IMG/VR virus record: IMGVR_UViG_3300046820_001232 | Coordinates: 1-22,518 of that record | DNA length: 22,518 bases | Source of the DNA: a virus | Reading direction: 5' to 3' (one strand) | Shown: one piece after another, positions 945 to 22,253 of the stretch | Layout of the letters: the number at the start of each line of letters is the position of its first letter | Numbering within the stretch: position 1 is the first letter of the stretch | Notes under the pieces: generated by a model | Told to the model about the DNA's origin: nothing | What the model saw: the letters and a program-made list of their open reading frames with translations, nothing else | The model's database searches: none | Made by a program: the position numbers and the translations under genes

Positions 945-1469
945 ATGACTTGTATTGCAGTAGTAAAACATGAAGATAAAATCTACATGGCAGGAGATCG
1001 TGGTGCCTCAGATGATGGTACTATTTTAGCATTAGATGCACCAAAAGTTTGGAAAATTGGTCCATACCTTATTGGGTATGCAGGTGCAATGGACGGAGAA
1101 AGAATCCGTTATAACTTTAAGCCAACTGCTCCCAATATTAAAGACACAGATAAGTTTATGCAAACAAAATTTGTAAAAGAACTTCGTGAATTCTATAATG
1201 AATTTTGGGTGGACACATCAAAAGACGGAGACCTTGGTTTGATCATTGCAGTTCGTGGTGAAATTTACGAACATAGTTCTGCAGACATGTCTTTATCTAA
1301 ATACACACTTCCTTATCTTGCTATGGGTTCGGGAGCAGAGTATGCTCTTGGAGCACTTCATGCAACAGATAAACAAAAGAATGCACGAAACCGTGTGGTT
1401 GCAGCAGTAAATGCAGCAATTAAATTTAGCCCATCTTGCATGGGTCCAGTTGACATCGTTAGCCTTTAA
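945..1469 (+). CDS. Proteasome-beta/HslV-like Ntn hydrolase (T1 peptidase fold)
   Basis: A 174-residue protein that resembles beta-type proteasome and HslV subunits. Removal of Met1 would expose Thr1 as the nucleophile (MTCIAVV). In mature numbering the partners fall exactly where this family has them: Asp17 in MAGDRGAS and Lys33 in DAPKVWKIG. A GSG turn follows (LAMGSGAEYALGAL), where the family has its conserved Ser/Gly loop. There is no propeptide and no alpha-subunit gene nearby, so it would act alone or as a self-assembling ring, like the Anbu and BPH proteins. It has its own promoter at 884-913 and lies 211 nt before a secreted subtilase gene. Fold and catalytic residues are well supported; the substrate is unknown. 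Confidence 0.8.
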   Translation: MTCIAVVKHEDKIYMAGDRGASDDGTILALDAPKVWKIGPYLIGYAGAMDGERIRYNFKPTAPNIKDTDKFMQTKFVKELREFYNEFWVDTSKDGDLGLIIAVRGEIYEHSSADMSLSKYTLPYLAMGSGAEYALGALHATDKQKNARNRVVAAVNAAIKFSPSCMGPVDIVSL

Positions 1470-1478
1470 GGATATAAT
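1450..1478 (+). promoter_or_regulatory. Consensus promoter giving a leaderless mRNA
   Basis: TTGACA at 1450-1455, a 17-nt spacer and TATAAT at 1473-1478, a perfect sigma70-type promoter. The ATG at 1485 is separated from the -10 by 6 nt, so its A is the expected +1. The -35 lies within the coding end of the hydrolase gene. No Shine-Dalgarno site is present. Confidence 0.85.
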
Positions 1479-1484
1479 TATAGT

Positions 1485-1679
1485 ATGAACGAAGAGTTAT
1501 CAGTAGAAGAACAAGAGTTCGGTATTTGGATTACAAATGGAATTGAGCGGGGATGGATTACAGAACCGTATTGCAATACTCATGACGGTGGATACCAATA
1601 CATGAGCGAAGAAGAGATTGAAGAGTGGGACCAAGGTGGAGACCCATGTTGTCATGTCGTCAGATTGATGATATCGTAA
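1485..1679 (+). CDS. Small acidic Cys/His protein, function unknown
   Basis: A 64-residue acidic protein (MNEELSVEEQEFG, then EEEIEEWDQGGD). Cysteines and histidines occur as C30-x2-H33 and C55-C56-H57, a spacing that could bind zinc. The type, with an N-terminal IxxGIxRGWI and a C-terminal DPCCHVVRL, looks like a hypothetical protein common in actinophages, but no function is recognised. The start is fixed by the leaderless promoter just upstream. The next frame begins directly after its stop, so it is probably cotranscribed with the subtilase. Confidence 0.7.
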   Translation: MNEELSVEEQEFGIWITNGIERGWITEPYCNTHDGGYQYMSEEEIEEWDQGGDPCCHVVRLMIS

Positions 1680-1695
1680 AATGAAAAGGAATACA

Positions 1696-2568
1696 ATGAA
1701 GAAGGCACTACTAGCAGGACTATCAGCAACACTTTTATTTTCGGTAATTGCACCAGCACAGGCAGAAGATCAAAAGGTTCTTGCCATTATTGACTCTGCT
1801 ATTAACTCTAACAACTTTCCATCAATTATTTATGAGGCTTGCTTTACAACTGTAAAGTCAAAGATTGTTTCACAAAATATGTCTTGCCCTAACGGAGAGT
1901 TGTTCATGGAAGGCAAAGGCTCAGCATCTGCACCATGGCCATCAGCAGTTAATAATGCTACATACCACGGAGACTCAATGGTAAAGTCTGCACTTACAGT
2001 AAATCCAGAACTAAAGATTGTCTTTGTTAGATTTAACGATGTAACAAGTATTGGAAATTCAAGGGGAGATGCTAAGGCACTTGCCCAAGCAATTGACTGG
2101 GTTTCAAAGAATGCTTCAAAGTACAGTATTGACGCTCTTTCAATTAGTCAGTCTTCGGTAAGTGCAGGGAACCTTGCTCTATGCTCAACAGACACGGTTA
2201 CTATTAACGCAGTGGCATCTTTAACTTCAAGCAATATTCCAGTTTTTGTTGCAACAGGTAATGATAAGCGACGAGATGTGGTTGGTTTTCCTTCCTGTGT
2301 GAGTGGCGTTATTGGTGTTGGAGCACTTGGCAATGCAACTCAACTAGAAACAGCAACAAATACAGGTCCTGGACTTGATATGGTTGCTCCTGGTAAGGTC
2401 AGCATTACCAAGTATAATGGATCCCCATTAGACACTGCTGGAAGTTCTGTAGCAACCGTAGTGTCAGCAGCATCATATGTAAACCGCAATACATTTAAGA
2501 CCTTTGTAGAGTATCTAAATGCTCTTCCAAAGATTTTGATTGGAACCGCAACATATATTCGTAATTAA
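1696..2568 (+). CDS. Secreted subtilisin-family (S8) serine protease
   Basis: The preferred start is the ATG at 1696, because AAAAGGA lies 5 nt upstream; an in-frame ATG at 1681 would add five residues. From 1696 it is 290 residues. A signal peptide (KKALLAGLSATLLFSV, ending APAQA-ED) is followed directly by the catalytic domain. Numbered from 1681, the triad is Asp38 (AIIDSAI), His96 (YHGDSM) and Ser256 (AGSSVAT), with the oxyanion Asn194 (ATGNDK). No prodomain is apparent between signal peptide and domain, so folding may need no intramolecular chaperone. The role is probably extracellular or at the cell surface, perhaps late in infection. Family assignment is firm; the target is unknown. 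Confidence 0.85.
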   Translation: MKKALLAGLSATLLFSVIAPAQAEDQKVLAIIDSAINSNNFPSIIYEACFTTVKSKIVSQNMSCPNGELFMEGKGSASAPWPSAVNNATYHGDSMVKSALTVNPELKIVFVRFNDVTSIGNSRGDAKALAQAIDWVSKNASKYSIDALSISQSSVSAGNLALCSTDTVTINAVASLTSSNIPVFVATGNDKRRDVVGFPSCVSGVIGVGALGNATQLETATNTGPGLDMVAPGKVSITKYNGSPLDTAGSSVATVVSAASYVNRNTFKTFVEYLNALPKILIGTATYIRN

Positions 2569-2602
2569 TAAAATGTCCTAGGCATGACTCAAAACTGCCC
2601 AT

Positions 2603-2675
2603 TGCCCTATAACTCAGATGGTAGAGTGCCGAACTGTTAATTCGGATGTCCCAGGATCGAGACCTGGTGGGGCAG
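2603..2675 (+). tRNA. tRNA-Asn (GTT)
   Basis: A 73-nt cloverleaf. The acceptor stem pairs TGCCCTA with TGGGGCA, with discriminator G. The anticodon stem CCGAA/TTCGG carries the loop CTGTTAA. The T arm CCAGG/CCTGG has the loop ATCGAGA, so T54 is replaced by A. CCA is not encoded. It stands alone between the subtilase and a -10 box, and is the only rightward tRNA in the window. Confidence 0.9.
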
Positions 2676-2684
2676 CAAATGGTG

Positions 2685-2690
2685 TATAAT
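2685..2690 (+). promoter_or_regulatory. Probable -10 box for the oxygenase/carbamoyltransferase unit
   Basis: TATAAT lies 10 nt after tRNA-Asn and 45 nt before the GTG at 2735, leaving a leader with AAAGGAG. No good -35 is seen in the tRNA sequence upstream, so the promoter is likely but not certain. Confidence 0.5.
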
Positions 2691-3403: not shown

Positions 3404-3404
3404 C

Positions 3405-3500: not shown

Positions 3501-4940
3501 GTGATAATCCTTGGTATTAATGAAACATCTCACGATGCATCTGTATCTTTAATCAAAGATGGAGAAATCCTATTTGCAGGGCATGCAGAAAGATATAGCA
3601 AACAAAAAAATGACTGGTATGTCAATAATAGTTTAATCAATGATGCTTTGTCATACGGTTTCCCTGATCAGATAGCCTACTATGAGAAGCCAATTCTAAA
3701 GGCCTCTAGGCTGCTTTTAAAGGGTGGTTCTGGTGATTGGATGCCTAGATATAATATAGAAAATATGTTTGGAAGGCCAGTTCCAACCAAATCATTTAAA
3801 CATCATTATTCCCACGCTTGCGCTGGGTACTATACAAGCCCATTTAACGATGCCGTAGTTGTAGTTCTAGATGCAATAGGAGAATACAACACATCAACAA
3901 TTTGGACAGGTGAAGGCGATAAACTTAAACTCAAATTTAAACAAAACTATCCAGTTAGTTTTGGATTATTCTATTCTGCATTTACAGATCTAATTGGACT
4001 TATGCCAAACCAAGAAGAATATATCATGATGGGGATGGCAGCCTACGGAGACTGGAAGAGATACTATAAAGAAGTAGATGAGTATTTTCCAAATTATCAT
4101 ACTCAAAAGTACAACTTTCATAAGGGAATCCACGACTGGGGTATTCCAATAACAGAGCAAGATAAGTTTGATATTGCAGCAGCGGTGCAGGTTGTTTATA
4201 CAACAAGGCTCATGGAGTTTATGAGTATGGCAAAGATAATTACAGGCAAAAAGAACCTTGTATTTATGGGTGGCTGTGCATTAAACTCATCTGCCAACAC
4301 ATCTTTATGGAATATATTTGACATGATTTGGATAATGCCAAATCCAGGAGATGCTGGAAGTTCTTTGGGAGCAGCAGCAGCGCTATATGGAAAGCATATT
4401 GAATGGAAGACCCCGTATCTTGGTTATGATCTTGGTGGAGAGTATCCTATTCAGAAAATTGTTGACGGTATATTGAAAGATGGAATCGTAGCAGTAGCAA
4501 CAGGTAGGGCTGAATATGGTCCAAGGGCTTTAGGCAATAGAAGTATCCTTGCAGATCCAAGAGATCCACTGATAAAAGACAAGGTAAACAGAATTAAGCA
4601 AAGAGAATTATTTAGACCATTTGCTCCTGTTGTTTTGGCTGATCATGCACACAAATGGTTTGATATGGATTTTGATAGCCCATACATGCAATATACTGTA
4701 AAGTGTTTACAGCCAGAAAAGATTCCTTCTGTGGTACATGAGGATGGCACCTCTAGAGTCCAGACAGTTACAAGAGAGCAGCACCCAGGACTATACAGGG
4801 CTATTAATAAGTTTTATCTTCAGACTGGTGTGCCAGTTCTTTTGAATACTAGTCTTAATATAAAAGGTCAGCCATTACTAAACGATGAGCAGGATATTTT
4901 AAAATGGGAAAAAGAGTATAGTTTTACAATATGTAAGTAA
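3501..4940 (+). CDS. NodU/CmcH/TobZ-type carbamoyltransferase
   Basis: A 479-residue enzyme that should transfer a carbamoyl group from carbamoyl phosphate, through carbamoyl-AMP, to a hydroxyl. The N-terminal domain shows the family motifs: ILGINETSHDAS (H11), HHYSHACAGYY (101-111), VVLDAIGEY, EYIMMGMAAYG, the nucleotide-binding FMGGCALNSSAN (255-266) and NPGDAGSSLGAAA. The C-terminal domain has AEYGPRALGNRSILADPR (337-354), FRPFAPVVL and PVLLNTSLNIKGQP. It is shorter than the usual 530-600 residues but keeps both domains. The start is GTG with a weak ribosome site. The acceptor could be a modified base, a cell-wall sugar or a small molecule; pairing with the upstream oxygenase suggests the hydroxyl is made in the same unit. 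Confidence 0.88.
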   Translation: MIILGINETSHDASVSLIKDGEILFAGHAERYSKQKNDWYVNNSLINDALSYGFPDQIAYYEKPILKASRLLLKGGSGDWMPRYNIENMFGRPVPTKSFKHHYSHACAGYYTSPFNDAVVVVLDAIGEYNTSTIWTGEGDKLKLKFKQNYPVSFGLFYSAFTDLIGLMPNQEEYIMMGMAAYGDWKRYYKEVDEYFPNYHTQKYNFHKGIHDWGIPITEQDKFDIAAAVQVVYTTRLMEFMSMAKIITGKKNLVFMGGCALNSSANTSLWNIFDMIWIMPNPGDAGSSLGAAAALYGKHIEWKTPYLGYDLGGEYPIQKIVDGILKDGIVAVATGRAEYGPRALGNRSILADPRDPLIKDKVNRIKQRELFRPFAPVVLADHAHKWFDMDFDSPYMQYTVKCLQPEKIPSVVHEDGTSRVQTVTREQHPGLYRAINKFYLQTGVPVLLNTSLNIKGQPLLNDEQDILKWEKEYSFTICK

Positions 4941-4941
4941 A

Positions 4942-4950
4942 TGGTATAAT
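4942..4950 (+). promoter_or_regulatory. Extended -10 promoter for the lysin operon
   Basis: TGG followed by TATAAT (4945-4950) matches an extended -10. The -35 region (TTTTAC) is poor. Initiation near 4957 leaves a 20-nt leader containing AAGGAGG at 4964-4970 before the ATG at 4977. Confidence 0.65.
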
Positions 4951-4976
4951 AGATATGTCTTTGAAGGAGGCAGATT

Positions 4977-5591
4977 ATGGCAGCAAAAGGAAGTTTAGAA
5001 GCAATCATTGAGGTTGCAAAGAAGGAAGTGGGCACAATTGAAGGCCCAAAAGATAATGAAACAAAGTACGGCGCTTGGATTAAGGTAAACTTCCAGCCAT
5101 GGTGCCAGTCATTTGTTTCTTGGTGTGCATTTACAGCAGGGGTAAAGTCATTCCCTAAGTCAGCGTCAACAGTAGCAGCAGCAGACTGGTTTAAGAAGGC
5201 TGAGCGTTGGTCAGATGCTCGCAATGATGATCCACAGCCAGGAGACTGGATTTATTTTGATTTTCCAGAAGATGGTGTAAATCGTATTTCACATGTTGGT
5301 CTTTGCATTAAGAACAACGGAGATGGAACTATCCAAGTTATTGAGGGAAATACTTCAGGAACTGCTAAGGGAGATCAACGCAATGGCGGAATGTGCGTAG
5401 AAAAAACTCGTGGATATGTAAAGAATAATAAGAAGAAGTTGATGAATGCAGTAGTTGGTTGGGGTCGACCAGTCTATGCTGGAGAAGAAAGTGCTCCATT
5501 GCTAAATAAACTAGCAGCACCTGCACCCTCTACAGCAAAGACAGCAGCAAAGACAGTAGCAAAGAAGCCAGCAGTTAAGAAGGCAAAGTAG
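4977..5591 (+). CDS. CHAP-domain endolysin with Lys/Ala-rich tail
   Basis: A 204-residue cell-wall hydrolase. The CHAP catalytic residues are clear: Cys43 in PWCQSFVSW, His106 in ISHVGLCI and Glu123/Asn125 in VIEGNTSG. PGDWIYFDF (88-96) is the usual strand before the His. The domain ends near residue 168 (GWGRPVYAG). A low-complexity tail rich in Ala, Pro and Lys (residues 180-204) follows, like those of actinobacterial DNA- or wall-associated proteins; it may help binding to the anionic envelope. AAGGAGG lies 6 nt before the ATG. The next gene begins at the base after its stop, and that gene is a small membrane protein. Confidence 0.85.
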   Translation: MAAKGSLEAIIEVAKKEVGTIEGPKDNETKYGAWIKVNFQPWCQSFVSWCAFTAGVKSFPKSASTVAAADWFKKAERWSDARNDDPQPGDWIYFDFPEDGVNRISHVGLCIKNNGDGTIQVIEGNTSGTAKGDQRNGGMCVEKTRGYVKNNKKKLMNAVVGWGRPVYAGEESAPLLNKLAAPAPSTAKTAAKTVAKKPAVKKAK

Positions 5592-8251: not shown

Positions 8252-8658
8252 TGTATGAATACTATGTAAGAAAAGTAGAGAACGTAGTAGATGGAGATAC
8301 CATCGATGTTCTAATTGATCTAGGGTTTGATATCCTATTTGCATCTCGTGTAAGACTGGCTGGTATTGATACCCCTGAGTCTCGCACAAAGGATCTTGCT
8401 GAAAAGGCACTTGGTCTTGAGGCTAAGGAATATCTAAAGAAGCACCTAAAGGATGCCAAGTCTGTTGTTATTAAGACTGAAAAGATGGACTCATCTGAGA
8501 AGTATGGTCGCATTTTGGGCTGGGTATATGTAGATGGCAACACTATATCCCTTAATGATATGATGATCAATGATGGCTATGCTTGGGGATACCTAGGAGA
8601 TACCAAGGTTAAGGACTTTGATGCTCTTGCAAAGGCTAGAAAGAAGTCTGGCAAGTGA
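8251..8658 (+). CDS. Staphylococcal-type thermonuclease (SNase)
   Basis: A 135-residue Ca-dependent nuclease domain with all catalytic positions: DGDTIDV (D14/D16), RLAGIDTPE (R35, D40, E43) and KYGRILGWV (R87). Residue numbers nearly coincide with those of staphylococcal nuclease. There is no signal peptide, so it should act in the cytoplasm, for instance in host DNA or RNA breakdown. The ATG at 8251 overlaps the previous stop; an upstream in-frame start at 8221 lies inside the DUF2061 gene. Its stop overlaps a GTG start (GTGA). Confidence 0.88.
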   Translation: MYEYYVRKVENVVDGDTIDVLIDLGFDILFASRVRLAGIDTPESRTKDLAEKALGLEAKEYLKKHLKDAKSVVIKTEKMDSSEKYGRILGWVYVDGNTISLNDMMINDGYAWGYLGDTKVKDFDALAKARKKSGK

Positions 8659-8909
8659 CCAATGTTCTTTACTTTACAGCAGACTGGTGCAATCCTTGTC
8701 AAAGGACAAAACCAGTTGCAGAAGAACTTCATGCAGAAGGACTAATAAACTTTGAGTTTATTGATGCTGATGCAAACATTGATCTAATCAAAAAGTTTGA
8801 TATTAAGGCTGTGCCAACATTCATATTAGTTGAAAACGACAAAGAGATTCGTCGAATGAATGGTACAAAAACTCGTCAAGACTTTTTAGATTTTATTTCT
8901 AAGGAATAG
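8655..8909 (+). CDS. Thioredoxin-like protein
   Basis: An 84-residue thioredoxin fold with active site WCNPC (C12/C15) and the cis-proline AVPTF (P54), then a GTKTRQDFLDFI ending. It starts at GTG within GTGA, overlapping the nuclease stop. The CNPC dipeptide differs from the usual CGPC, so its redox potential may differ. Phage thioredoxins can serve ribonucleotide reductase or act as polymerase factors; neither partner is in this window. Confidence 0.88.
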   Translation: MTNVLYFTADWCNPCQRTKPVAEELHAEGLINFEFIDADANIDLIKKFDIKAVPTFILVENDKEIRRMNGTKTRQDFLDFISKE

Positions 8910-10265: not shown

Positions 10266-10547
10266 ATGAATAAATTTAAATGGAAAGATGATGCTGTCTG
10301 TTTGGACTACGATACAAATCTGTTTTTTGAAAAGTATGAAGATGATGAACTGTTAAGACCAGCGATTGATGAACTATGCTTTTCTTGTCCAGTAAGAAAA
10401 GAATGCTTCTCTGTTGGAATATCTGGAAAAGAATGGGGAGTCTGGGGTGGGGTATACCTAGAAAATGGGGAACTATCTAAAGAGTTCTCAAGCCATAAGA
10501 GCAAGAATGACTGGGGCAAAACCTGGCAGTCACTAACGATGGAGTAG
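10266..10547 (+). CDS. WhiB-family transcriptional regulator
   Basis: A 93-residue protein with the WhiB iron-sulfur cluster ligands C12, C38, C41 and C47 (ELCFSCPVRKEC) and the turn GVWGGVYL (59-66), which contacts the sigma factor. The family is essentially limited to actinobacteria and their phages, so this is the strongest host indicator in the window. The C-terminal part after the turn (SSHKSKNDWGKTW) has few basic residues and no clear AT-hook-like patch, so DNA contact may depend on the sigma factor. It begins one base after the previous stop. Confidence 0.9.
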   Translation: MNKFKWKDDAVCLDYDTNLFFEKYEDDELLRPAIDELCFSCPVRKECFSVGISGKEWGVWGGVYLENGELSKEFSSHKSKNDWGKTWQSLTME

Positions 10548-11003: not shown

Positions 11004-11407
11004 TACAGTCAATCTTATTGGTTATCCTATCGATAACATCAACAACATTTGGTTTCCTATTTTATCTTCAAAGAAAAAAGACACTGCAGGTTATTGCTCA
11101 GATACTTGAATTCATTATGATCCAAGAGTCTCAGCAGCAGGAAACGAAGACGGACAAGGATAAGGCCAATGAAGACTTTCTAAAGTTTATTTCAGATTCC
11201 CGTGACTGGGCTTATACCTATATAGATGAGGTTCAGGCTACATTAAGTAAGTTTATTACTGATATTGAGCCAGAGATAAACTATTTTAAGGAGTACGGAG
11301 ACCTTGCTTCTATGTCTCCTAACTATTACTCAATGAAAAAAATTGCAGGGGCATATGAAGAACTAAAGAAACTCTTGCCAGAAGACTATGGTAAAATAGA
11401 TACATGA
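11000..11407 (+). CDS. Membrane-anchored hypothetical protein with coiled-coil tendency
   Basis: A 135-residue protein. Residues 2-22 form a membrane helix (SILLVILSITSTTFGFLFYL) followed by RKK, predicting a cytoplasmic C-terminus. The rest is charged and helical (QESQQQETKTDKDKANEDF, WAYTYIDEVQATLSKFITD, GAYEELKKLLPEDYG). Proteins with this layout are common in actinophages; function unknown. It is coupled by ATGA overlaps at both ends. Confidence 0.65.
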   Translation: MIQSILLVILSITSTTFGFLFYLQRKKTLQVIAQILEFIMIQESQQQETKTDKDKANEDFLKFISDSRDWAYTYIDEVQATLSKFITDIEPEINYFKEYGDLASMSPNYYSMKKIAGAYEELKKLLPEDYGKIDT

Positions 11408-12006: not shown

Positions 12007-12009
12007 AAT

Positions 12010-12564
12010 ATGACACAGCCTAATCTAGGAAACTCTGTAGATAATATACAGATTACAGAAAATGTTTTATCTGAAGAAGAACACAAGAAACTTCTTGAGT
12101 ATGTAGTATCAGTTGATTCTTGGAATACCCAGCCGTGGGGAGTTAAGTTTGTTGTATCAGCGGAAATGCCAAGAGCAATTGTTCAAATGCTAGATAAAAT
12201 TTTTGAAATTGCTCATGAAAAATGTACTAATGCATATGGTGTAGAACTATATCCATTTAAAAAAAATCAAGTTCCTCTAATAAAATTTGAAAATGGGTAT
12301 AGCATGAATGAGCATGCAGACACAGCAGGAGATTTTGCAGCAATATATTATATTAATGACAATTACATTGGTGGAGAGATAAACTTTATGGATCATGGTT
12401 TAAAAATTAAACCAAAGGCTAATAGTTTTGTAACATTTCCAAGCAATTCAGACTACTGGCACGAGGTGCTAGAAAATACTGGAGGAGAAAGATACTCTGC
12501 CACTCTTTGGTTTAAGTTAGATGGTTCTAGCATTGAGCGACCAAAGCGTGGTCTGATTAGATAA
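12010..12564 (+). CDS. 2OG-Fe(II) oxygenase (P4H-like), copy B
   Basis: A 184-residue paralogue of the preceding enzyme sharing NIQxxENVLSEEEHK, MLDKIF and GGEINFxDHxLKIKPKANS. The triad is H102-x-D104 (NEHADTAG) and H151 (YWHEVLE), with R161 (ERYSATLWF). It lacks the first 15 or so residues of copy A. Differences just before and after the HxD motif suggest the two enzymes have different substrates. It begins 3 nt after copy A. Confidence 0.88.
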   Translation: MTQPNLGNSVDNIQITENVLSEEEHKKLLEYVVSVDSWNTQPWGVKFVVSAEMPRAIVQMLDKIFEIAHEKCTNAYGVELYPFKKNQVPLIKFENGYSMNEHADTAGDFAAIYYINDNYIGGEINFMDHGLKIKPKANSFVTFPSNSDYWHEVLENTGGERYSATLWFKLDGSSIERPKRGLIR

Positions 12565-13204: not shown

Positions 13205-13234
13205 CAGGCTAGGGTAGTTGACTAGCCTGTTTTT
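13205..13234 (+). terminator. Rho-independent terminator
   Basis: CAGGCTAG (13205-13212) pairs with CTAGCCTG (13222-13229) around a 9-nt loop, followed by TTTTT at 13230-13234. It closes the operon ending at 13191. Confidence 0.85.
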
Positions 13235-13246
13235 CTATGCTATAAT
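13218..13246 (+). promoter_or_regulatory. Promoter for hsp20, overlapping the terminator
   Basis: TTGACT at 13218-13223, a 17-nt spacer and TATAAT at 13241-13246. The -35 box occupies the loop and right arm of the terminator. The expected start is A13253, giving a leader of about 50 nt with AAAGGGG before the ATG at 13304. The leader begins with a possible hairpin (CCC 13258-13260 against the G run at 13265-13270). Confidence 0.8.
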
Positions 13247-13303
13247 ATTTATACCTGCCCAAATGGGGGGTAAATTAATTTATTCGCTTGAAAGGGGAAT
13301 AAC

Positions 13304-13708
13304 ATGGTAAAAACAGCACTGGATCTTTTTAATGATCCATTTTTTAACACCTTCTCAAATCTACAGAAGGTAACAACAACAACAAACTATCCACCTTATA
13401 ATCAGGTCAAACTAAATGACAAAGAATATATTCTTTCATTTGCTTTGGCTGGTTTTTCTAAGGATGATGTTTCAGTATCGCTAGACAATCGCAAACTTAC
13501 AATCAAGGGCGAGAAGAAGGATGCTGAATTGCCAGAGGGTGCAGAGTATCTACACAAGGGCATTGCTGCTCGGAAGTTCACAGATATCTTTACTCTTCCT
13601 GAGTTTGTTGAAGTTGTTGGGGCTGAGTTCAAGGACGGTATCCTAGATATTAGACTTGAGAAGCAGATCCCAGAAGACAAACTACCAAAGACTATTGAAA
13701 TTCAGTAG
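13304..13708 (+). CDS. Hsp20-family small heat-shock protein
   Basis: A 134-residue chaperone. A short N-terminus (LDLFNDPFFNTF) leads into an alpha-crystallin domain: YPPYNQVKLNDKEYILSF, LAGFSKDDVSVSLDNRKLTIKG, ARKFTDIFTLPEFVEVVGAEF and GILDIRLEK, then an IEIQ end resembling the IxI anchor used in oligomer assembly. It holds unfolding proteins without ATP; phage versions are often tied to virion assembly or stress during infection. It has its own promoter and probably ends at the hairpin at 13810. Confidence 0.9.
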   Translation: MVKTALDLFNDPFFNTFSNLQKVTTTTNYPPYNQVKLNDKEYILSFALAGFSKDDVSVSLDNRKLTIKGEKKDAELPEGAEYLHKGIAARKFTDIFTLPEFVEVVGAEFKDGILDIRLEKQIPEDKLPKTIEIQ

Positions 13709-13852: not shown

Positions 13853-14530
13853 GATATATATTTCATGAAATCCTAATTCATGTAAAACTATACCATCAAC
13901 AGACCAGTTATCGTTAAAGTGTAAAAACTCATTTACGCTATTGTAAGTTCCTATATGTTTCCCATAGTTAATACTATCGTAATTTATGTAAGCAGTTAGA
14001 CCTATAACACCACCAACGCTAACTAGTTTTGAGCAGTGTCGTAAAAGTTTCCTTAGCATAAGTCTTTCTGAATCCATATCAAAAAAAATAAAGTCATACT
14101 CTTTATCTAGAGTAGGAACGATTTCTCTTGCATTCCCAACTATAGTATTTACATTTGGGTGGTAAGAAAATTTATTTTTTATATACTCTTCATGCGTCAT
14201 TGACTCATCATAAGGACGATGTGCCTCTGATTCTAAAATACCAAAAGCATTGTTATACATATCTAAAAGATCTGCACTTCTGGCATTTGTCATATCTATA
14301 AATAATTTGGCCGAAAACCCCCATGCAACACCTATCTCTAGATAAGATATATTTTTATTTAAAGTTTTTGCATAGTCTTTTCTTGAACTAAATAGTTTTG
14401 CATTATTTAATTGATCTTGAGATATAGGGTATGCCTCTTCAATCTCATGATCTTCATATGTTACTTGTTCATCATATTTTAGTGGTGGTATTTGTGTTTT
14501 TTTTGCAGTCCGACCAGATGCATCATTCAT
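13832..14530 (-). CDS. Class I SAM-dependent methyltransferase-like protein
   Basis: A 232-residue protein. The ATG at 14530 is chosen because TATACT ends 6 nt before it; a start at 14587 would lie upstream of that promoter. ISYLEIGVAWGFSAKLFID (from about residue 61) is motif I for SAM binding, DLLDMY follows, and YDFIFFDMDSER and LVSVGGVIGL are the later strands of a Methyltransf_24-type domain. The 120-residue part between motif I and the acidic loop has an insert (AHRPYDESMTHEEYIKNK). Candidate O- or N-methyltransferase; substrate unknown. It stands alone leftwards between rightward genes. Confidence 0.7.
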   Translation of the reverse strand: MNDASGRTAKKTQIPPLKYDEQVTYEDHEIEEAYPISQDQLNNAKLFSSRKDYAKTLNKNISYLEIGVAWGFSAKLFIDMTNARSADLLDMYNNAFGILESEAHRPYDESMTHEEYIKNKFSYHPNVNTIVGNAREIVPTLDKEYDFIFFDMDSERLMLRKLLRHCSKLVSVGGVIGLTAYINYDSINYGKHIGTYNSVNEFLHFNDNWSVDGIVLHELGFHEIYIKKNYNK

Positions 14531-14536
14531 AAATAA

Positions 14537-14545
14537 AGTATAGCA
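14537..14545 (-). promoter_or_regulatory. Extended -10 promoter, leaderless methyltransferase start
   Basis: Read leftwards, TGC then TATACT (14542-14537) ends 6 nt before the ATG at 14530. There is no convincing -35, and the extended -10 may compensate. A rightward -10 lies only 25 bp away. Confidence 0.65.
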
Positions 14546-14566: not shown

Positions 14567-14572
14567 TATAAT
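14567..14572 (+). promoter_or_regulatory. -10 box for the structured RNA
   Basis: TATAAT followed by 6 nt and then G14579, the first base of a 10-bp inverted repeat. The spacing equals that of the leaderless genes, so the RNA should begin with the stem. No clear -35. Confidence 0.5.
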
Positions 14573-14578
14573 TGGTAT

Positions 14579-14662
14579 GTCCCACACAGGACCTTAGTGA
14601 TGGATTAGTTACCCATTGGATAGAGACCGTGGCGCAAGTCAGGTGAATTACTTGTGTGGGAC
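14579..14662 (+). ncRNA. Candidate 84-nt structured RNA, family unknown
   Basis: GTCCCACACA (14579-14588) pairs perfectly with TGTGTGGGAC (14653-14662). Inside, ACCT (14591-14594) can pair with AGGT (14641-14644), GATGG (14599-14603) with CCATT (14613-14617), and GAC (14625-14627) with GTC (14638-14640), giving a closed multi-branched fold. A TATAAT ends 6 nt before it, and its end is 15 nt before the -10 of the HNH gene. It is not a tRNA, as there is no T arm. The outer pairing is certain; transcription and the inner helices are inference. Confidence 0.55.
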
Positions 14663-14676: not shown

Positions 14677-14682
14677 TATAAT
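14677..14682 (+). promoter_or_regulatory. -10 box, leaderless HNH start
   Basis: TATAAT with 7 nt to the ATG at 14690. No Shine-Dalgarno site and no good -35 (TTGTGT lies 19 nt upstream). Confidence 0.55.
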
Positions 14683-14689
14683 AATATCA

Positions 14690-14962
14690 ATGACTAACAA
14701 AGAGTTAGAAACCTATAATAAGCAGCAGTATAAGAAAATGCTTGCTAAGATAAAAGAGGATTCTGGCTGTGTAGACTGCGGAATCAATAATCATATTATC
14801 TTAGATTTTGACCACATAAGAGACAAAAAATATAATGTTTCAAGGATGATCCATGATGGATTCTCATGGAAGGCTATCAAAAAAGAGATTGAAAAGTGTG
14901 AGGTAGTATGTGCAAACTGCCATAGAATAAGGACGCATAATAGGCTAAACGGCATGATATAA
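14690..14962 (+). CDS. HNH endonuclease
   Basis: A 90-residue protein with a compact HNH core: C27-x2-C30 (SGCVDCGINNH), LDFDHIRDKK with the catalytic His, and C71-x2-C74 followed by HRIRTHNR (CANCHRIRTHNR). The two cysteine pairs hold a structural zinc. A start at 14654 would lie upstream of the -10, so 14690 is chosen. Small lone HNH proteins in phages act as homing nickases or with terminase; the structured RNA just upstream makes a mobile unit thinkable but unproven. Its end contains the promoter of the next gene. Confidence 0.85.
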   Translation: MTNKELETYNKQQYKKMLAKIKEDSGCVDCGINNHIILDFDHIRDKKYNVSRMIHDGFSWKAIKKEIEKCEVVCANCHRIRTHNRLNGMI

Positions 14963-14963
14963 T
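14955..14963 (+). promoter_or_regulatory. Extended -10 promoter, leaderless dps start
   Basis: TGA then TATAAT (14958-14963), 6 nt before the ATG at 14970. It overlaps the last codons of the HNH gene. No Shine-Dalgarno site and no consensus -35. Confidence 0.7.
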
Positions 14964-14969
14964 GGTTAT

Positions 14970-15419
14970 ATGGAAGAATTGATTAACTTGCTAAAGGTGC
15001 TCCTTGCGGACAATATTACCCTCAAGTTGAAAGCCCATGGATATCACTGGAATGTAGAAGGCGATGACTTCCCACAGTTCCACGATTTTTTTGGCGATAT
15101 CTATGCAGACTATGAGTCAGCAACAGATACATATGCAGAGTGGCTTCGCAAGTTAGATGCATATGCACCTTTTAAACTATCTAGATTTATAGAACTAAAT
15201 GAAGTTGGAGAACCAGATGTTACCTCTGATTCAATGATGATGTCTAAAGATTTGCTTGCAGCAAATGATATGGTACTTGCAAAATTGACTGACGCAGTTG
15301 AAATGGCTACAGGAAATAGACAGCATGCATTAGCAAATTTCTTTGCGGAGCGAATGGATCAACATCAAAGATGGCACTGGATGCTATCTGCATCTCTAAA
15401 AGAAAATGAAGTAGACTAA
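14970..15419 (+). CDS. Dps-like ferritin family protein
   Basis: A 149-residue four-helix protein of the Dps type. KAHGYHWNVEGDDFPQFHDFF followed by ADYESATDTYAEWLRKLD carries the ferroxidase ligands seen in the family (HxxHWN, then DxxAE, here DTYAE). The end has AERMDQHQRWHWMLSASL, as in host Dps. Such dodecamers oxidise and store iron and protect DNA from hydrogen peroxide. There is no lysine-rich N-terminal tail, so direct DNA binding is less likely. It is transcribed as a leaderless message and followed one base later by the next gene. Confidence 0.85.
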   Translation: MEELINLLKVLLADNITLKLKAHGYHWNVEGDDFPQFHDFFGDIYADYESATDTYAEWLRKLDAYAPFKLSRFIELNEVGEPDVTSDSMMMSKDLLAANDMVLAKLTDAVEMATGNRQHALANFFAERMDQHQRWHWMLSASLKENEVD

Positions 15420-16273: not shown

Positions 16274-16669
16274 CTAATCTGGTAACTTGTGAAAATAGGC
16301 CATCATCAATTTGATAAGGCGTTGATTTAATCCAGGGTGAAATCCATCAAAAAATTTTAAAAAATTCTCATCATACATGCATGAGGCAACCATATTTGAA
16401 ATAAATCTTTTATCTGTTACAAAAAACCAGTCATCAATATGTTTAATAAAAAGATCAAAGCAGTCTTCTGAAACTTTATCTTTTAAAGGAACATTATTTA
16501 TAACTAAATAAGCAAGAGAATCAACTAAATGAACTGCTTCTTCGGTCATATTTGCCCAGTCTTCTTTAGAAAATTTAGACAAACTCTCTTTACAATCTAT
16601 AACCTTTTCATCATTTGGAGAACTTTCCATCCACTCACGCCACAATTGAACACACTTTACTTTTTCCAT
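16274..16669 (-). CDS. Hypothetical protein, 131 residues
   Basis: The ATG at 16669 is chosen because TATAAT ends 6 nt before it; the longer in-frame start at 16729 would lie inside tRNA-Arg. The protein is helical and acidic (WREWMESSPNDEK, FSKEDWANMTEEAVHLVDSLAYLVINN), then DCFDLFIKHIDDWFFVTDKRF and HPGLNQRLIKLMMAYFHKL. No motif is recognised. It lies tail to tail with the 42-residue gene and has its own leaderless promoter. Confidence 0.7.
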   Translation of the reverse strand: MEKVKCVQLWREWMESSPNDEKVIDCKESLSKFSKEDWANMTEEAVHLVDSLAYLVINNVPLKDKVSEDCFDLFIKHIDDWFFVTDKRFISNMVASCMYDENFLKFFDGFHPGLNQRLIKLMMAYFHKLPD

Positions 16670-16675
16670 AAACTC

Positions 16676-16681
16676 ATTATA
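16676..16681 (-). promoter_or_regulatory. -10 box, leaderless start
   Basis: Read leftwards, TATAAT (16681-16676) is followed by GAGTTT and the ATG at 16669. The expected -35 position falls at the end of tRNA-Arg and is not consensus. Confidence 0.6.
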
Positions 16682-16697
16682 CACTACTAATGCTCGG

Positions 16698-16770
16698 TAC
16701 CCCTGGCAGGAATCGAACCTGCGACGCATGGCTTAGAAGTCCATCGTTCTGTCCACTGAACTACAGAGGT
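16698..16770 (-). tRNA. tRNA-Arg (TCT)
   Basis: A 73-nt cloverleaf: acceptor ACCTCTG/CAGGGGT with discriminator A, D stem GTTC/GAAC, anticodon loop CTTCTAA on the stem ATGGA/GCCAT (last pair A-G), and T arm GCAGG/CCTGC with loop TTCGATT. It reads AGA. CCA is not encoded. Confidence 0.9.
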
Positions 16771-19835: not shown

Positions 19836-20041
19836 CCTAACTCCTTCTCAATAGCCTGAATAGTGGGGCAGGGATAAAAATTTAGTCTACCAATGCCACA
19901 GTCGCAGTAAGTTTCTTTTATTTCTGAATCTTTAAGAACAAAGTGTACTGGCTTATGTAGTTTAACTACCGCACGAAGTGCAGCCCAAGAGGAGGTGTGT
20001 CCAAGAACATCGATCTTATCTAATATCTCGTCATATGTCAT
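19832..20041 (-). CDS. Hypothetical actinophage-type protein, 69 residues
   Basis: First gene of the leftward operon. SSWAALRAVVKLHKPVH followed by YCDCGIGRLNFYPCPTIQAIEKEL is a pattern familiar from many actinophage hypotheticals (C46, C48 and C58 as possible ligands). The start is fixed by a leaderless promoter whose -10 ends 6 nt before the ATG. Its TGA overlaps the next ATG. Function unknown. Confidence 0.75.
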   Translation of the reverse strand: MTYDEILDKIDVLGHTSSWAALRAVVKLHKPVHFVLKDSEIKETYCDCGIGRLNFYPCPTIQAIEKELG

Positions 20042-20047
20042 ATACCT

Positions 20048-20076
20048 ATAATACTCCTATATCGCTGCAAAGTCAA
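20048..20076 (-). promoter_or_regulatory. Promoter of the leftward small-gene operon, leaderless
   Basis: Read leftwards, TTGACT (20076-20071), 17 nt, TATTAT (20053-20048), 6 nt and ATG at 20041. It sits between tRNA-Leu(TAA) and the operon. GGAG in the spacer is upstream of the expected start and so would not be transcribed. Confidence 0.8.
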
Positions 20077-20077
20077 G

Positions 20078-20150
20078 TGTCCCTCATTGGATTCGAACCA
20101 ATGCTGTATAGATTTTAAGTCTACTGCCTCTACCACTGGGCTAGAAGGAC
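20078..20150 (-). tRNA. tRNA with anticodon TAA (Leu), short variable loop
   Basis: A 73-nt cloverleaf: acceptor GTCCTTC/GAGGGAC with discriminator A, anticodon loop CTTAAAA on GTAGA/TCTAT, variable loop ACAGC, T arm ATTGG/CCAAT with TTCGAAT. The anticodon reads UUA. Leucine tRNAs normally carry a long variable arm, which is absent here. Confidence 0.85.
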
Positions 20151-20153
20151 TTG

Positions 20154-20224
20154 CTCTCCCCCAAGGATTCGAACCTCAATAGCCAGGACCAAAACCTGGA
20201 GTCCTACCGTTAGACGAGGGGAGA
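20154..20224 (-). tRNA. tRNA-Gln (TTG)
   Basis: A 71-nt cloverleaf: acceptor TCTCCCC/GGGGAGA with discriminator G, D region GTCTAACGGTAGGAC as in bacterial tRNA-Gln, anticodon stem CCAGG/CCTGG with loop TTTTGGT, T loop TTCGAAT. It reads CAA. Confidence 0.9.
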
Positions 20225-20228
20225 AAAG

Positions 20229-20311
20229 CGGAAGTAATAGGATTCGAACCTATGGATCTTTCGATCTACGATTTAGCAAACCGTTGCATTCGACCACTCT
20301 GCCATACTTCC
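20229..20311 (-). tRNA. tRNA-Ser (GCT)
   Basis: An 83-nt type II tRNA: acceptor GGAAGTA/TACTTCC with discriminator G, anticodon stem ACGGT/ATCGT with loop TTGCTAA, a long variable arm (GATC-GAAA-GATC) and T loop TTCGAAT. It reads AGC/AGT. Confidence 0.92.
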
Positions 20312-20312
20312 G

Positions 20313-20384
20313 TAGCCCCAACGGGAGTCGAACCCGTCTTGCCAGATTGAAAATCTGGAGTCCTAACCGATAGACGATGGAGCC
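20313..20384 (-). tRNA. tRNA-Glu (TTC)
   Basis: A 72-nt cloverleaf: acceptor GGCTCCA/TGGGGCT with discriminator A, anticodon stem CCAGA/TCTGG with loop TTTTCAA, T arm ACGGG/CCCGT with TTCGACT. It reads GAA. Confidence 0.92.
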
Positions 20385-20388
20385 TTAG

Positions 20389-20462
20389 TGCTTCTCACAG
20401 GACTTGAACCTGTAACCCCCAGATCCTAAATCTGGTGCCTCTACCAATTGGGCTAGAGAAGC
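20389..20462 (-). tRNA. tRNA with anticodon TAG (Leu), short variable loop
   Basis: A 74-nt cloverleaf: acceptor GCTTCTC/GAGAAGC with discriminator A, anticodon stem CCAGA/TCTGG with loop TTTAGGA, variable loop GGGTT, T arm ACAGG/CCTGT with TTCAAGT. The anticodon reads CUA. As with the TAA tRNA, the long arm usual for leucine tRNAs is missing. Confidence 0.85.
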
Positions 20463-20466
20463 CTTG

Positions 20467-20537
20467 CAGAGTCTCTAGGAGTCGAACCTAGGCTTACCGC
20501 TTTGGAGACGGTAGTGCTTCCGTAACACTTAGACCCT
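20467..20537 (-). tRNA. tRNA-Trp (CCA)
   Basis: A 71-nt cloverleaf: acceptor AGGGTCT/AGACTCT with discriminator G, D stem GTGT/GCAC, anticodon stem ACCGT/GCGGT with loop CTCCAAA, T arm CTAGG/CCTAG with TTCGACT. It reads TGG. Confidence 0.92.
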
Positions 20538-20707
20538 AAGTGCCAGCCACGGCTTTGGTTCTTAACCTAAACCACCTGCTGGCTGTTATACCTAGTCACG
20601 ACCACAGAGCAATCTCCATCAGCCTGAACGCCTTCGTATGATGTAGGTGACAGCGTAAGGTTCAGTATAACCATCTTTGCATGGATTGTTCAGATCCATA
20701 CTCTGAG
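20538..20707 (-). ncRNA. Unassigned structured sequence inside the tRNA array
   Basis: 170 nt between tRNA-Gly and tRNA-Trp with no protein frame and no tRNA. Read leftwards, ATGGAT-CTGAACA-ATCCAT is a 6-bp hairpin. CTGAA plus CCTT pairs with AAGG and TTCAG across about 20 nt. Near the 3' end GCCAGC pairs with GCTGGC, enclosing GGTT-TAGGTTAAG-AACC. These would be cut out with the tRNAs as stable RNA. Compare RNA C and RNA D in the T4 tRNA cluster, as an analogy only. Confidence 0.5.
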
Positions 20708-20778
20708 AGCGGATGATCAGAATCGAACTGACCCCTTCTGCTTGGAAGGCAGAGGCACTACCAATATGCAACATCCGC
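20708..20778 (-). tRNA. tRNA-Gly (TCC)
   Basis: A 71-nt cloverleaf: acceptor GCGGATG/CATCCGC with discriminator T as is usual for bacterial tRNA-Gly, anticodon stem TCTGC/GCAGA with loop CTTCCAA, T loop TTCGATT. It reads GGA. Confidence 0.92.
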
Positions 20779-20800
20779 ATTACACTATTTAATTATTTTG

Positions 20801-20874
20801 TACATCTGGAAGGACTTGAACCTTCGGCTCTCTGCATATAAGGCAGGTACTCTAACCAACTGAGTTACAGATGC
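20801..20874 (-). tRNA. tRNA-Ile (TAT)
   Basis: A 74-nt cloverleaf: acceptor GCATCTG/CAGATGT with discriminator A, anticodon loop CTTATAT on CCTGC/GCAGA (outer C-A mismatch), T arm GAAGG/CCTTC with TTCAAGT. It reads ATA directly, without needing lysidine. Confidence 0.88.
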
Positions 20875-20878
20875 TTAG

Positions 20879-20952
20879 TACACCAGGTAGGACTTGAACC
20901 TACGATAACCGAATTATGAGTTCGGGGCCTTGACCAACTTGGCTACTGGTGC
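20879..20952 (-). tRNA. tRNA-Met-type (CAT)
   Basis: A 74-nt cloverleaf: acceptor GCACCAG/CTGGTGT with discriminator A, anticodon stem CCGAA/TTCGG with loop CTCATAA, T arm GTAGG/CCTAC with TTCAAGT. It lacks the three G-C pairs of initiator tRNA, so it is probably elongator Met; a lysidine-modified Ile is less likely because tRNA-Ile(TAT) is next to it. Confidence 0.88.
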
Positions 20953-20958
20953 TAGTCC

Positions 20959-21102: not shown

Positions 21103-21113
21103 TTAGTTAATCC

Positions 21114-21281
21114 TTAAATATTTTGAGATGCAAGATATAAAGACTGCTGAATAATCTGCTCTCTCAAGAAAGCCTGTTTTCTTTCAAACTTAGAAAGTTG
21201 TGGTTTTGCCTGAACTCTCTTCTTGTTCTTATTTGCTCGTTTGATCTTGTGCTGAGACACCTTGTTATTAGACTGTTTCAT
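21114..21281 (-). CDS. 55-residue very basic protein
   Basis: ATG at 21281, 5 nt after the upstream stop. The first 33 residues hold many lysines and arginines (KIKRANKNKKRVQAK), then KFERKQAFLREQIIQQSLYL forms an amphipathic helix. Composition suggests binding to nucleic acid or ribosomes, but no family is recognised. Ends 11 nt before the 47-residue gene. Confidence 0.6.
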   Translation of the reverse strand: MKQSNNKVSQHKIKRANKNKKRVQAKPQLSKFERKQAFLREQIIQQSLYLASQNI

Positions 21282-21286
21282 TTATA

Positions 21287-21415
21287 TCACTGACTTTCTG
21301 CTGTATTGTCACAAGGACAAATGATTGATTCTGGTAATTCGTGAACACTTGTTTCAATTGTGATCACAGTTTCACACTCTTTGCATTCATAGACTTTTTT
21401 AATTTGTTCGCTCAT
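21287..21415 (-). CDS. 42-residue zinc-ribbon-like protein
   Basis: The start is fixed by a leaderless promoter whose -10 ends 6 nt before the ATG at 21415. C11-x2-C14 (YECKECET) and C33-x-C35 (IICPCDN) are the likely zinc ligands, similar to the FmdB-type protein at 5905 with its CxC pair. First gene of the unit leading into the tRNA array. Function unknown. Confidence 0.7.
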   Translation of the reverse strand: MSEQIKKVYECKECETVITIETSVHELPESIICPCDNTAESQ

Positions 21416-21421
21416 ATACTA

Positions 21422-21450
21422 ATCATACCATACTGAACAATCGGTGTCAA
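21422..21450 (-). promoter_or_regulatory. Consensus promoter upstream of the tRNA unit, leaderless
   Basis: Read leftwards, TTGACA (21450-21445), 17 nt, TATGAT (21427-21422), 6 nt and ATG at 21415. The TGA inside the -35 box is the stop codon of the HAD gene. Confidence 0.85.
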
Positions 21451-21896
21451 GACTTGTCTCCATCCCAGTTTCCGATCTTTGTAGTTGGAATGCCATTAGC
21501 GCCCCAAAGAGTAATTATGCTAGGATTGTCATCAACTGCATGGACTACATGCCAATACTTTTTAATTTCATTTAGTATATCTGCTTTAACCTCGTAGTCA
21601 GGTCTAACATCTCCATCTTTACGCATGTATAGCGCATTGTGTCCGATATCGTTTTTAGCAAGCCAATACGATGTAAGCCCACGCCATTTTTCCATTCTAG
21701 ATGTAACAATAATTACATCCATCTGATCAAAAAAAGCATTGTTAAGCATCTCTACTACCTCGATATGTGGCAGGGCATCAATAGAAGCCTCATGAAAGGC
21801 GTTGTAATCCTTATTAGAGCCACGAACAAGGTGTATATATGGATCTACATTGGCAAGAGTTCCATCCACATCAAATATGTATGCTGGTCTTTTAAT
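21447..21896 (-). CDS. HAD-family phosphatase (polynucleotide 3'-phosphatase-like), probable ATT start
   Basis: A 149-residue HAD protein. The first standard start codon in frame is a GTG at 21869, which would cut motif I and remove its nucleophile. Eight codons before that Val the frame reads (M)KRPAYIFDVDGTLANVD from an ATT at 21896-21894, giving D9 and D11. AAGGTGG lies 6 nt upstream, and the ATT overlaps the previous TAA by one base, like the other coupled genes. An in-frame TGA lies six codons upstream of the ATT. Later motifs are VIIVTSRMEKWR (II), a Lys region (KADILNEIKK) and HAVDDNPSI (IV). Similar domains remove 3'-phosphates in T4 PseT; the substrate here is not proven. Confidence 0.75.
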   Translation of the reverse strand: MKRPAYIFDVDGTLANVDPYIHLVRGSNKDYNAFHEASIDALPHIEVVEMLNNAFFDQMDVIIVTSRMEKWRGLTSYWLAKNDIGHNALYMRKDGDVRPDYEVKADILNEIKKYWHVVHAVDDNPSIITLWGANGIPTTKIGNWDGDKS

Positions 21897-21981
21897 TTTG
21901 ATCCACCTTATATGTCATTGCAACATAGCAGGCAACATATCCCATAACAAATGCTGGAATTAAAAATAGTGCATGAATCAT
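21892..21981 (-). CDS. 29-residue membrane peptide
   Basis: It starts at an ATG overlapping the previous stop (ATGA) and ends in a TAA overlapping the ATT start of the HAD gene. The sequence is one membrane helix (ALFLIPAFVMGYVACYVAM) with a short polar end. Overlaps on both sides support translation, perhaps mainly to couple the HAD gene. Confidence 0.6.
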   Translation of the reverse strand: MIHALFLIPAFVMGYVACYVAMTYKVDQN

Positions 21982-22112
21982 TCAGTATCCTCCAATACTT
22001 TATCAAATAGTTTATCATCTTTTGGCACCCAAACTTTTTTACCGTCTTTCCAAACTGGCCAATACCCAAGACTGCGCCAGTCCATAGACATTATTTTAGG
22101 ATCTTTTGGCAT
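21978..22112 (-). CDS. 44-residue hypothetical protein
   Basis: An ATG at 22112 within the end of the previous gene (17-nt overlap) and a TGA overlapping the next ATG. The product MDWRSLGYWPVWKDGKKVWV has a short beta-hairpin pattern, followed by an acidic helix (DKLFDKVLEDTE). The preceding gene supplies GAAAGG about 10 nt upstream. No family recognised. Confidence 0.6.
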   Translation of the reverse strand: MPKDPKIMSMDWRSLGYWPVWKDGKKVWVPKDDKLFDKVLEDTE

Positions 22113-22218
22113 TAACGCACCAAACCTTTCCATCGCTCATTGTTTGGTGGGCTTCCCAAAACCACTCTGAGCCTTTGCCCAAATTGCAAATCTCGCAGTG
22201 CTCTTCTGATGTCTTCAT
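22096..22218 (-). CDS. 40-residue Cys/His protein
   Basis: The start is fixed by a leaderless promoter. EEHCEICNLGKGSEWFWEAH gives C8-x2-C11 with H24, and KVWCVNAK gives C34, a likely zinc site. First gene of a chain of overlapping small genes ending with the HAD phosphatase. Function unknown. Confidence 0.7.
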   Translation of the reverse strand: MKTSEEHCEICNLGKGSEWFWEAHQTMSDGKVWCVNAKRS

Positions 22219-22224
22219 ATATCA

Positions 22225-22253
22225 ATTATACACTTTTTAGAGGAATAAGTCAA
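22225..22253 (-). promoter_or_regulatory. Consensus promoter, leaderless start
   Basis: Read leftwards, TTGACT (22253-22248), 17 nt, TATAAT (22230-22225), 6 nt and ATG at 22218. It lies in the gap after the stop of the right-hand partial gene. Confidence 0.85.

Follow-up and report, generated by a model that had tools for sequence, protein, structure and literature searches.

Complete and extended promoters directly before start codons

The window, a stretch of 22,518 nucleotides of viral DNA (IMG/VR record IMGVR_UViG_3300046820_001232), raises the question of why several of its genes carry a promoter -10 box only 6 or 7 nt before the start codon. An earlier note, made from the sequence alone, had listed eight such genes and proposed that they yield leaderless mRNAs. 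All eight sites were found in their places, and TTGAC(A/T)-17 nt-TATnAT-6 nt-ATG is exactly shared by genes 1485, 20041, 21415, and 22218. The module of gene 1485 (1450..1487, plus strand) consists of TTGACA (1450–1455), 17 nt, TATAAT (1473–1478), 6 nt, and the ATG at 1485. Its -35 box lies within the 3′ end of gene 945 and its -10 box beyond the stop codon of that gene. The -35 box, spacer, -10 box, N6, and ATG are kept in dozens of orthologs despite a differing N-terminus, and 31 of the 33 distinct orthologs have the -10 box at 6 or 7 nt. TTGAC falls within codons that are conserved in the upstream gene, so little can be concluded from its conservation by itself; the -10 box and its spacing lie outside that gene, and their conservation is informative.

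Gene 21415 (21413..21450, minus strand) has TTGACA (21450–21445), 17 nt, TATGAT (21427–21422) preceded by TGG, 6 nt, and ATG. Among its 11 orthologs, eight have a -10 box at 6 or 7 nt, three are SD-led, and none has both; the promoter is of the -35 type in five members of the family and an extended -10 in two. Gene 22218 (22216..22253, minus strand) has TTGACT (22253–22248), 17 nt, TATAAT (22230–22225), 6 nt, and ATG, and its homologs in two relatives carry the same full module. Gene 20041 (20039..20076, minus strand) has TTGACT from 20076, the base adjoining tRNA-Leu (20077–20150), then 17 nt, TATTAT (20053–20048), 6 nt, and ATG. This module was not kept in the orthologs of 20041, which are SD-led and mostly overlap the upstream gene, and it appears to be the least supported of the four.

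The other four sites have a -10 box with a weaker context. The HNH endonuclease gene 14690 (14677..14692, plus strand) has TATAAT (14677–14682) 7 nt before its ATG, with neither a -35 box nor TGN; in its 24 orthologs the -10 box lies at 6 or 7 nt in 18 and at 5–8 nt in 21, and outside this range at 9 nt, some orthologs starting with GTG. The Dps/ferritin-like gene 14970 (14955..14972, plus strand; TGA-TATAAT at 14955–14963, 6 nt, ATG) is of the leaderless type in 7/7 orthologs. The arrangement of the methyltransferase-like gene 14530 (14528..14545, minus strand; TGC-TATACT at 14545–14537, 6 nt, ATG) recurs in six records. The TipAS-domain gene 16669 (16667..16681, minus strand; TATAAT at 16681–16676, 6 nt, ATG) starts directly past tRNA-Arg (16696–16770), and all three of its orthologs keep the -10 arrangement. 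None of the eight sites has a usable SD. An AGGAG is present ca. 14 nt from the ATG of 20041 and ca. 12 nt from that of several 1485 orthologs; in both cases it abuts the -10 box at a distance too great for a normal SD, and at the 1485 orthologs it could serve a readthrough transcript.

Enrichment at one distance and loss of the SD sequence

A motif scan against shuffled sequence, which the earlier note had proposed as a check, gave module frequencies far above the shuffled background. TTGAC-N18-TATNAT-N6-ATG occurs four times in the window against a shuffle mean of 0.002 (0/500 shuffles reached four), TATNAT-N6-ATG 11 times against 2.4, and TATNAT-N6/7-ATG 18 times against 4.9. When the -10 box was taken as TANNNT, 23 longer relatives contained 70 module places compared with four for the reversed pattern; redundancy among the records leaves the sites counted partly dependent on one another. 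We also profiled the distance of the -10 box in 15 longer relatives and the window, with starts called by coding score alone and upstream signals unused. TATNAT or TATACT stood exactly 6 nt upstream of 71 starts against a background of ca. 8 per position, and the SD peak at 5–8 was distinct from this -10 peak. An SD of -6 kcal/mol or better was found at 8% of the leaderless-type starts, 53% of the other starts, and 10% of shuffled sequences. The start codon was ATG in 85 of 87 leaderless-type starts. A total for the mutual exclusion of TA box and SD mixes families selected for a -10 box with SD controls and was not used as a test; family 12, an internal ATG of a carbamoyltransferase gene, was left out of the mode totals.

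A scan from box to ATG was performed without a gene caller. The ATG lay exactly at 6 nt in 52/171 boxes of the -35 class and in 120/594 boxes of the extended -10 class, and an ORF of at least 40 codons followed in 81% and 88%, respectively; in reversed sequence, the corresponding counts were 0/53 and 6/312. In the -35 class, an ATG with an ORF occurs at 6 nt or from ca. 20 nt onward and is rare at 9–14 nt, a pattern that fits mRNAs either lacking a leader altogether or having one long enough to hold an SD. The equally AT-rich T4 showed no -10 box at 6 nt before starts. Patience, PA6, DSL-LC01, and P23-45 showed no clear -10 peak, in samples so small or GC-rich that absence is not implied.

From the spacing, enrichment, conservation, SD loss, and promoter classes, we infer that the sites are, very probably, promoters of leaderless mRNAs, recognized by the main sigma factor of the host, in a phage that infects freshwater Actinobacteria. 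With the -10 box 6 or, at times, 7 bases upstream of the start codon, the A of ATG would be the first base of the RNA, and the ribosome would begin at the RNA 5′ end with no need of an SD. This mode would be supplied by two classes of promoter, complete -35/-10 and extended -10. Genes on a shared transcript behind an upstream gene rely mostly on an SD, and so do promoter-headed genes with a leader.

A structured RNA (14567..14662, plus strand) provides a ruler for the start point. It runs from 14579 to 14662 with a 12-bp closing stem and begins 6 nt past a TATAAT (14567–14572), which supports the putative RNA start point independently. Its 5′ end lies 6–7 nt past its -10 box in 17/23 relatives and within 6–8 nt in most of 86 copies. 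With the spacing, SD loss, and ortholog conservation, this makes leaderless initiation, as the earlier note had claimed, well supported at the level of sequence comparison, and points indirectly to the A of ATG as +1.

Host of the phage family

The window and its relatives form an uncultured lake phage family that probably infects Actinobacteria. A WhiB-family gene (10266..10547, plus strand; Pfam PF02467, E 2.7e-11), a host clue and possible regulator, is present in 14 of 15 records (the window and 13 of 14 relatives); of the 14 genomes used as controls, C. glutamicum alone has one. The best phage matches of the ribonucleotide reductase of one relative are an Actinomycetia phage and mycobacteriophages. 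In one scan of contigs, the relatives recovered for the Dps protein came from Chitinophaga-like and further sources outside the Actinobacteria. In a search for a phage sigma factor, no sigma-70 region 2 match was obtained, and region 4 matches were weak and below the cut-off.

Two promoter classes

Most leaderless sites in the relatives have TGN and lack a -35 box, and a single shared module was rejected. Full TTGACA-17-TATNAT promoters stand on small accessory genes. Extended -10 promoters (TGN-TATAAT) without a -35 box make up nearly all leaderless sites of the virion module and are also found on many genes outside it. In five long relatives, the leaderless sites of virion regions were 35 extended and two with a -35 box versus 49 and 24 elsewhere (p = 0.0009), and by families nine and none versus 40 and 26 (p = 0.023), p values that are optimistic since the sites are orthologous. 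The gene sets thus differ in promoter class, a distinction that the earlier note did not draw.

It is possible, if unlikely, that promoter class sets timing, early or accessory genes being driven by -35/-10 promoters and virion genes by extended -10 ones, perhaps with the help of a phage factor masking sigma region 4; leaderlessness would be common to both, and this is compatible with the leaderless explanation. The skew in the virion regions, whose lateness is assumed from gene content, and the conserved WhiB are consistent with it, as is Thermus phage P23-45, in which middle and late promoters are extended -10 promoters spared by gp39 (PMC7403470). However, the p values are optimistic for the reason given, extended -10 promoters also stand before many accessory genes and are common in C. 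glutamicum without infection (PMC3890552), the majority of virion genes are SD-led, and the sigma-binding phage protein is hypothetical. A specific form, in which a phage factor such as WhiB acts on sigma region 4 and shifts the host polymerase to extended -10 promoters for virion genes while leaderless translation is kept throughout (a Thermus-phage-like programme in Actinobacteria), is distinctly unlikely.

Leader length, gene position, and translation mode

Very short leaders (1–5 nt), or mainly upstream readthrough RNA translated by an SD or by coupling, are a very unlikely account of the sites as a whole. At the HNH gene, the -10 box and the ATG are a variable 7–9 nt apart, so that this gene may have a 1–3 nt leader, and the AGGAG of some 1485 orthologs and the many sites directly behind a same-strand gene also point in this direction. 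In contrast, the main peak is exactly 6, the SD is lost at leaderless-type starts, and the structured RNA gives 6–7.

Many leaderless-type sites stand inside gene arrays. A leader and an SD precede the first genes 945, 2735, 4977, and 13304. Gene 945 (884..947, plus strand) follows the promoter TTGACA-18-TATACT (884–913), the endolysin-like gene 4977 (4923..4979, plus strand; SD AAGGAGG) follows TTTACA-16-TATAAT (4923–4950), and the Hsp20 gene 13304 (13218..13306, plus strand) follows TTGACT-17-TATAAT (13218–13246); the SD is present in 51/52, 50/50, and 24/25 of their orthologs, respectively. In the relatives, leaderless-type starts followed a gene on their own strand at under 30 nt as often as other starts did (39/86 versus 532/1117, p = 0.74), and only the divergent class was enriched among them (12/86 versus 62/1117, p = 0.005). 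The proposal that leaderless genes tend to be the first of their unit is borne out only in part. Likewise, operon-internal genes mostly have an SD, as proposed, but 1681, 10266, 11404, 12565, 15421, 17867, and 22133 have no appreciable one.

Ortholog families keep one mode; where a family changes, each member has one mode or the other, and the change goes with gene position. The earlier note had suggested that leaderless versus SD translation is a temporal or selectivity switch. Conservation of mode gene by gene and the precedent of phage phiYS40, with its leaderless middle and late mRNAs (PMC3594737), would fit this suggestion. Nevertheless, virion genes and small accessory genes alike include both modes, a change of mode within a family goes with position, and the first genes 945, 4977, and 13304 have SDs. 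In mycobacteria, the ratio of protein to mRNA does not differ systematically between leaderless and SD genes (PMC7148126). The mode used goes with the gene and its position, and a switch is very improbable indeed. Of the earlier interpretation, leaderless initiation is well supported and a probable actinobacterial host has support from WhiB, but the switch is not supported: the leaderless arrangement is real and conserved, but it is a common working of such bacteria and not a new type of switch.

Chance matches in AT-rich DNA are extremely improbable for the whole set: -10-like hexamers are common at 37.6% GC and promoter-like sites overall are not enriched in the window (78 versus 69.3), but shuffles, reversed sequence, the distance profile, and T4 rule chance out, the enrichment being confined to one distance and conserved. 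Two extra sites resemble coding coincidences and were rejected: 12010, where TGG TAT AAT are conserved W-Y-N codons, and 17662, where TAT GAT lies inside conserved codons. These two and 20041 could still be chance matches as single sites.

Comparison with known systems

For an abundant lake phage group, these results give a simple conserved rule for correct gene starts; SD-based callers would misplace or miss the small leaderless genes. They also show individual genes keeping or exchanging translation mode with genome position, and point to a division of promoter classes, between accessory genes and virion genes, that can be put to the test.

Leaderless mRNAs are a frequent feature of Actinobacteria, and C. 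glutamicum has 33% leaderless mRNAs as well as extended -10 promoters (PMC3890552). The TA-led genes described in Actinobacteria (Zheng et al. 2011, PMC3160421; mycobacteria, PMC4633059; C. glutamicum, PMC3890552) have TANNNT ca. 12 bp before the start, comparable to the hexamer here, which is separated from the start codon by 6 nt, and in both cases these starts lack an SD and stand beside SD-led genes. Here, however, the genes belong to an uncultured freshwater phage family, the hexamers are stronger (TATAAT/TATACT), starts are almost only ATG, and many sites lie within gene arrays. In Deinococcus-Thermus, a different phylum, a -10 box directly before the ORF also gives a leaderless mRNA (PMC12340547), whereas a consensus -35 box or TGN element is often present here.

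Among Thermus phages, P23-45 resembles this family in that its virion genes are served by extended -10 promoters lacking a -35 box (PMC7403470), the lateness of such genes being assumed here; in contrast to P23-45, no gp39-like factor was identified in our analysis, and genes beyond the virion module use extended -10 promoters too. phiYS40 has many leaderless mRNAs, including those of late genes (review, PMC3594737), and its programme features host initiation factors IF2/IF3 shifted on infection. Unlike in phiYS40, accessory genes with -35 promoters are of the leaderless type too, and most virion genes are SD-led with several of the leaderless type, a mixture that gives no sign of a global change of mode.

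Promoter-to-ATG modules in the window and its relatives

The window is a complete virus record of 22,518 bases, possibly itself a fragment, with a GC content of 37.6%, 12 tRNA genes, and one WhiB gene. Genes are named here by the window coordinate of their start codon. Eight promoter-to-ATG sites described in an earlier note were all present at their places and in the form claimed: the full module, TTGAC(A/T)-17 nt-TATnAT-6 nt-ATG, at 1485 (+), 20041 (-), 21415 (-), and 22218 (-), and weaker versions at 14690 (+), 14970 (+), 14530 (-), and 16669 (-). In a comparison with dinucleotide shuffles, the window held 4 copies of the full module where shuffles gave 0.002, and 11 copies of TATNAT-N6-ATG where they gave 2.4. 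The TATNAT-to-ATG distance peaked at 6–8 nt. Promoter-like sites in general were not enriched in the window (78 versus 69.3); therefore, the spacing to ATG is the special feature.

Three scans of public viral contigs yielded many relatives. TTGAC-N18-TANNNT-N6-ATG was found 70 times in 23 longer relatives, versus 4 for the reversed pattern. In the window and 15 relatives (up to 116 kb), genes were called by coding score alone, since upstream signals are then unable to bias the starts. Among 1,215 distinct upstream regions, TATNAT or TATACT lay exactly 6 nt before the start in 71 and 7 nt before it in 16, versus approximately 8 elsewhere, and Shine-Dalgarno (SD) motifs peaked 5–8 nt before the start. 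An SD motif was present at 8% of starts with a -10 box at 6 or 7 nt (leaderless-type starts), 53% of other starts, and 10% of shuffles. The leaderless reading of the module is well supported.

Two promoter classes at leaderless-type starts

When leaderless starts were aligned, T occupied -15 in 70% and G -14 in 85%, representing an extended -10. Box-to-ATG distances were also counted without a gene caller, using an ORF threshold of at least 40 codons. ATG stood at 6 nt in 52 of 171 boxes with a -35 (81% then opening such an ORF) and in 120 of 594 boxes with TGN and no -35 (88%), while boxes with neither element showed little excess. The -35 class comprised 26 families (median 57 residues) and the extended -10 class 49 (median 134 residues). 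For five long relatives, the virion regions were delimited by hand from gene families: 35 leaderless sites inside them were extended versus 2 with a -35; outside them, the numbers were 49 and 24 (p 0.0009, although the family-level p of 0.023 is safer because the sites counted are orthologs). An extended -10 before 12010 coincides with conserved W-Y-N codons and is probably a coincidence; it falls within a stretch of two tandem, mutually similar genes (11404-12564, +), the first of which matches 2OG-Fe(II) oxygenases (PF13640).

A structured RNA next to the promoters

A conserved structured RNA of approximately 84 nt (14579-14662, +; z -3.6), with a 12-bp closing stem, lies between 14530 and 14690, immediately ahead of the gene for an HNH endonuclease and in one copy per genome. 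Seven of 18 predicted pairs were changed on both sides, the closing stem was never broken, and no convincing Rfam match was obtained. Its core gave at least 120 matches in a public viral scan, with 86 distinct copies among the loci retrieved. Of 23 relatives, 17 had the first base of the RNA 6 or 7 nt past a -10 box, and in most of the 86 copies the first paired base lay 6–8 nt past the box, the distance of 8 coming from copies in which bases 1 and 2 do not pair. Should the stem mark the RNA 5′ end, transcription would start at the seventh or eighth base past the -10 box, which is where the gene modules have the A of ATG; this inference makes no use of start codons. In one relative (locus L162, ~2100-2200, +; L075 is the same place), this RNA precedes a different leaderless-type gene, not HNH; the protein of that gene, MKSIYEIPLNSAEGQ..., is putatively glutathione-peroxidase-like by eye.

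Translation mode follows gene and position

Homologs of 1485 retain TTGAC, the 17-nt spacer, TATACT/TATAAT, the 6-nt gap, and ATG even where the first residues of the protein vary. The TTGAC is weak evidence because it lies within conserved codons of the upstream gene; the -10 box and gap are beyond that gene's stop. Orthologs were leaderless-type in 31/33 (1485), 7/7 (14970), 2/2 (14530), and 3/3 (16669) cases, and SD-led in 51/52 (945), 50/50 (4977), 24/25 (13304), and 30/32 (583). Family 21415 was mixed (leaderless-type in 8, SD-led in 3, both in none). In family 20041, members overlapping an upstream gene were SD-led, and the window alone had a leaderless-type member, which lies behind a tRNA. 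These changes fit gene position rather than a switch acting globally: a gene that follows another on a shared RNA needs an SD, whereas one with its own close promoter does not. Approximately 45% of leaderless-type starts lay <30 nt from an upstream same-strand gene, no lower than for other genes; therefore, many of these sites are internal promoters. The suggestion that translation mode acts as a timing or selectivity switch was not supported, the mode following gene and place.

Nine tRNA genes form a cluster (20077-20952, -); leaderless promoters lie right behind tRNA genes there, at 16669, and at 61655 of the relative G002. The leaderless-type gene at 16669 (16274-16669, -), directly behind tRNA-Arg, encodes a TipAS antibiotic-recognition domain (PF07739, E 9e-9). 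The window carries many host-like accessory genes, encoding an HslV-like peptidase (945-1469), a carbamoyltransferase (3501-4940), thioredoxin (8655-8909), Hsp20 (13304-13708), and Dps/ferritin (14970-15419).

Host and known systems

WhiB was found in 14 of 15 records, sigma-70 region 2 had no match in any of the 15, and a relative's ribonucleotide reductase was nearest to those of a lake-assembled Actinomycetia phage (PMC10611076) and mycobacteriophages. In Actinobacteria, TANNNT approximately 12 bp before the start marks leaderless genes (PMC3160421); leaderless molecules account for about one in four transcripts in mycobacteria (PMC4633059) and for 33% of mRNAs in Corynebacterium glutamicum, where TGnTATAAT promoters are common (PMC3890552). 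This family of phages is therefore most likely doing as its host does. The literature searched gave no report on freshwater actinophages, a negative that is limited evidence. Phage precedents are phiYS40 for leaderless middle and late mRNAs (PMC3594737) and P23-45 for extended -10 late promoters (PMC7403470); added here are the distinction of two promoter classes, which virion genes and the remaining genes share unevenly, a mode conserved per gene, and a structured RNA as a ruler for the start point.
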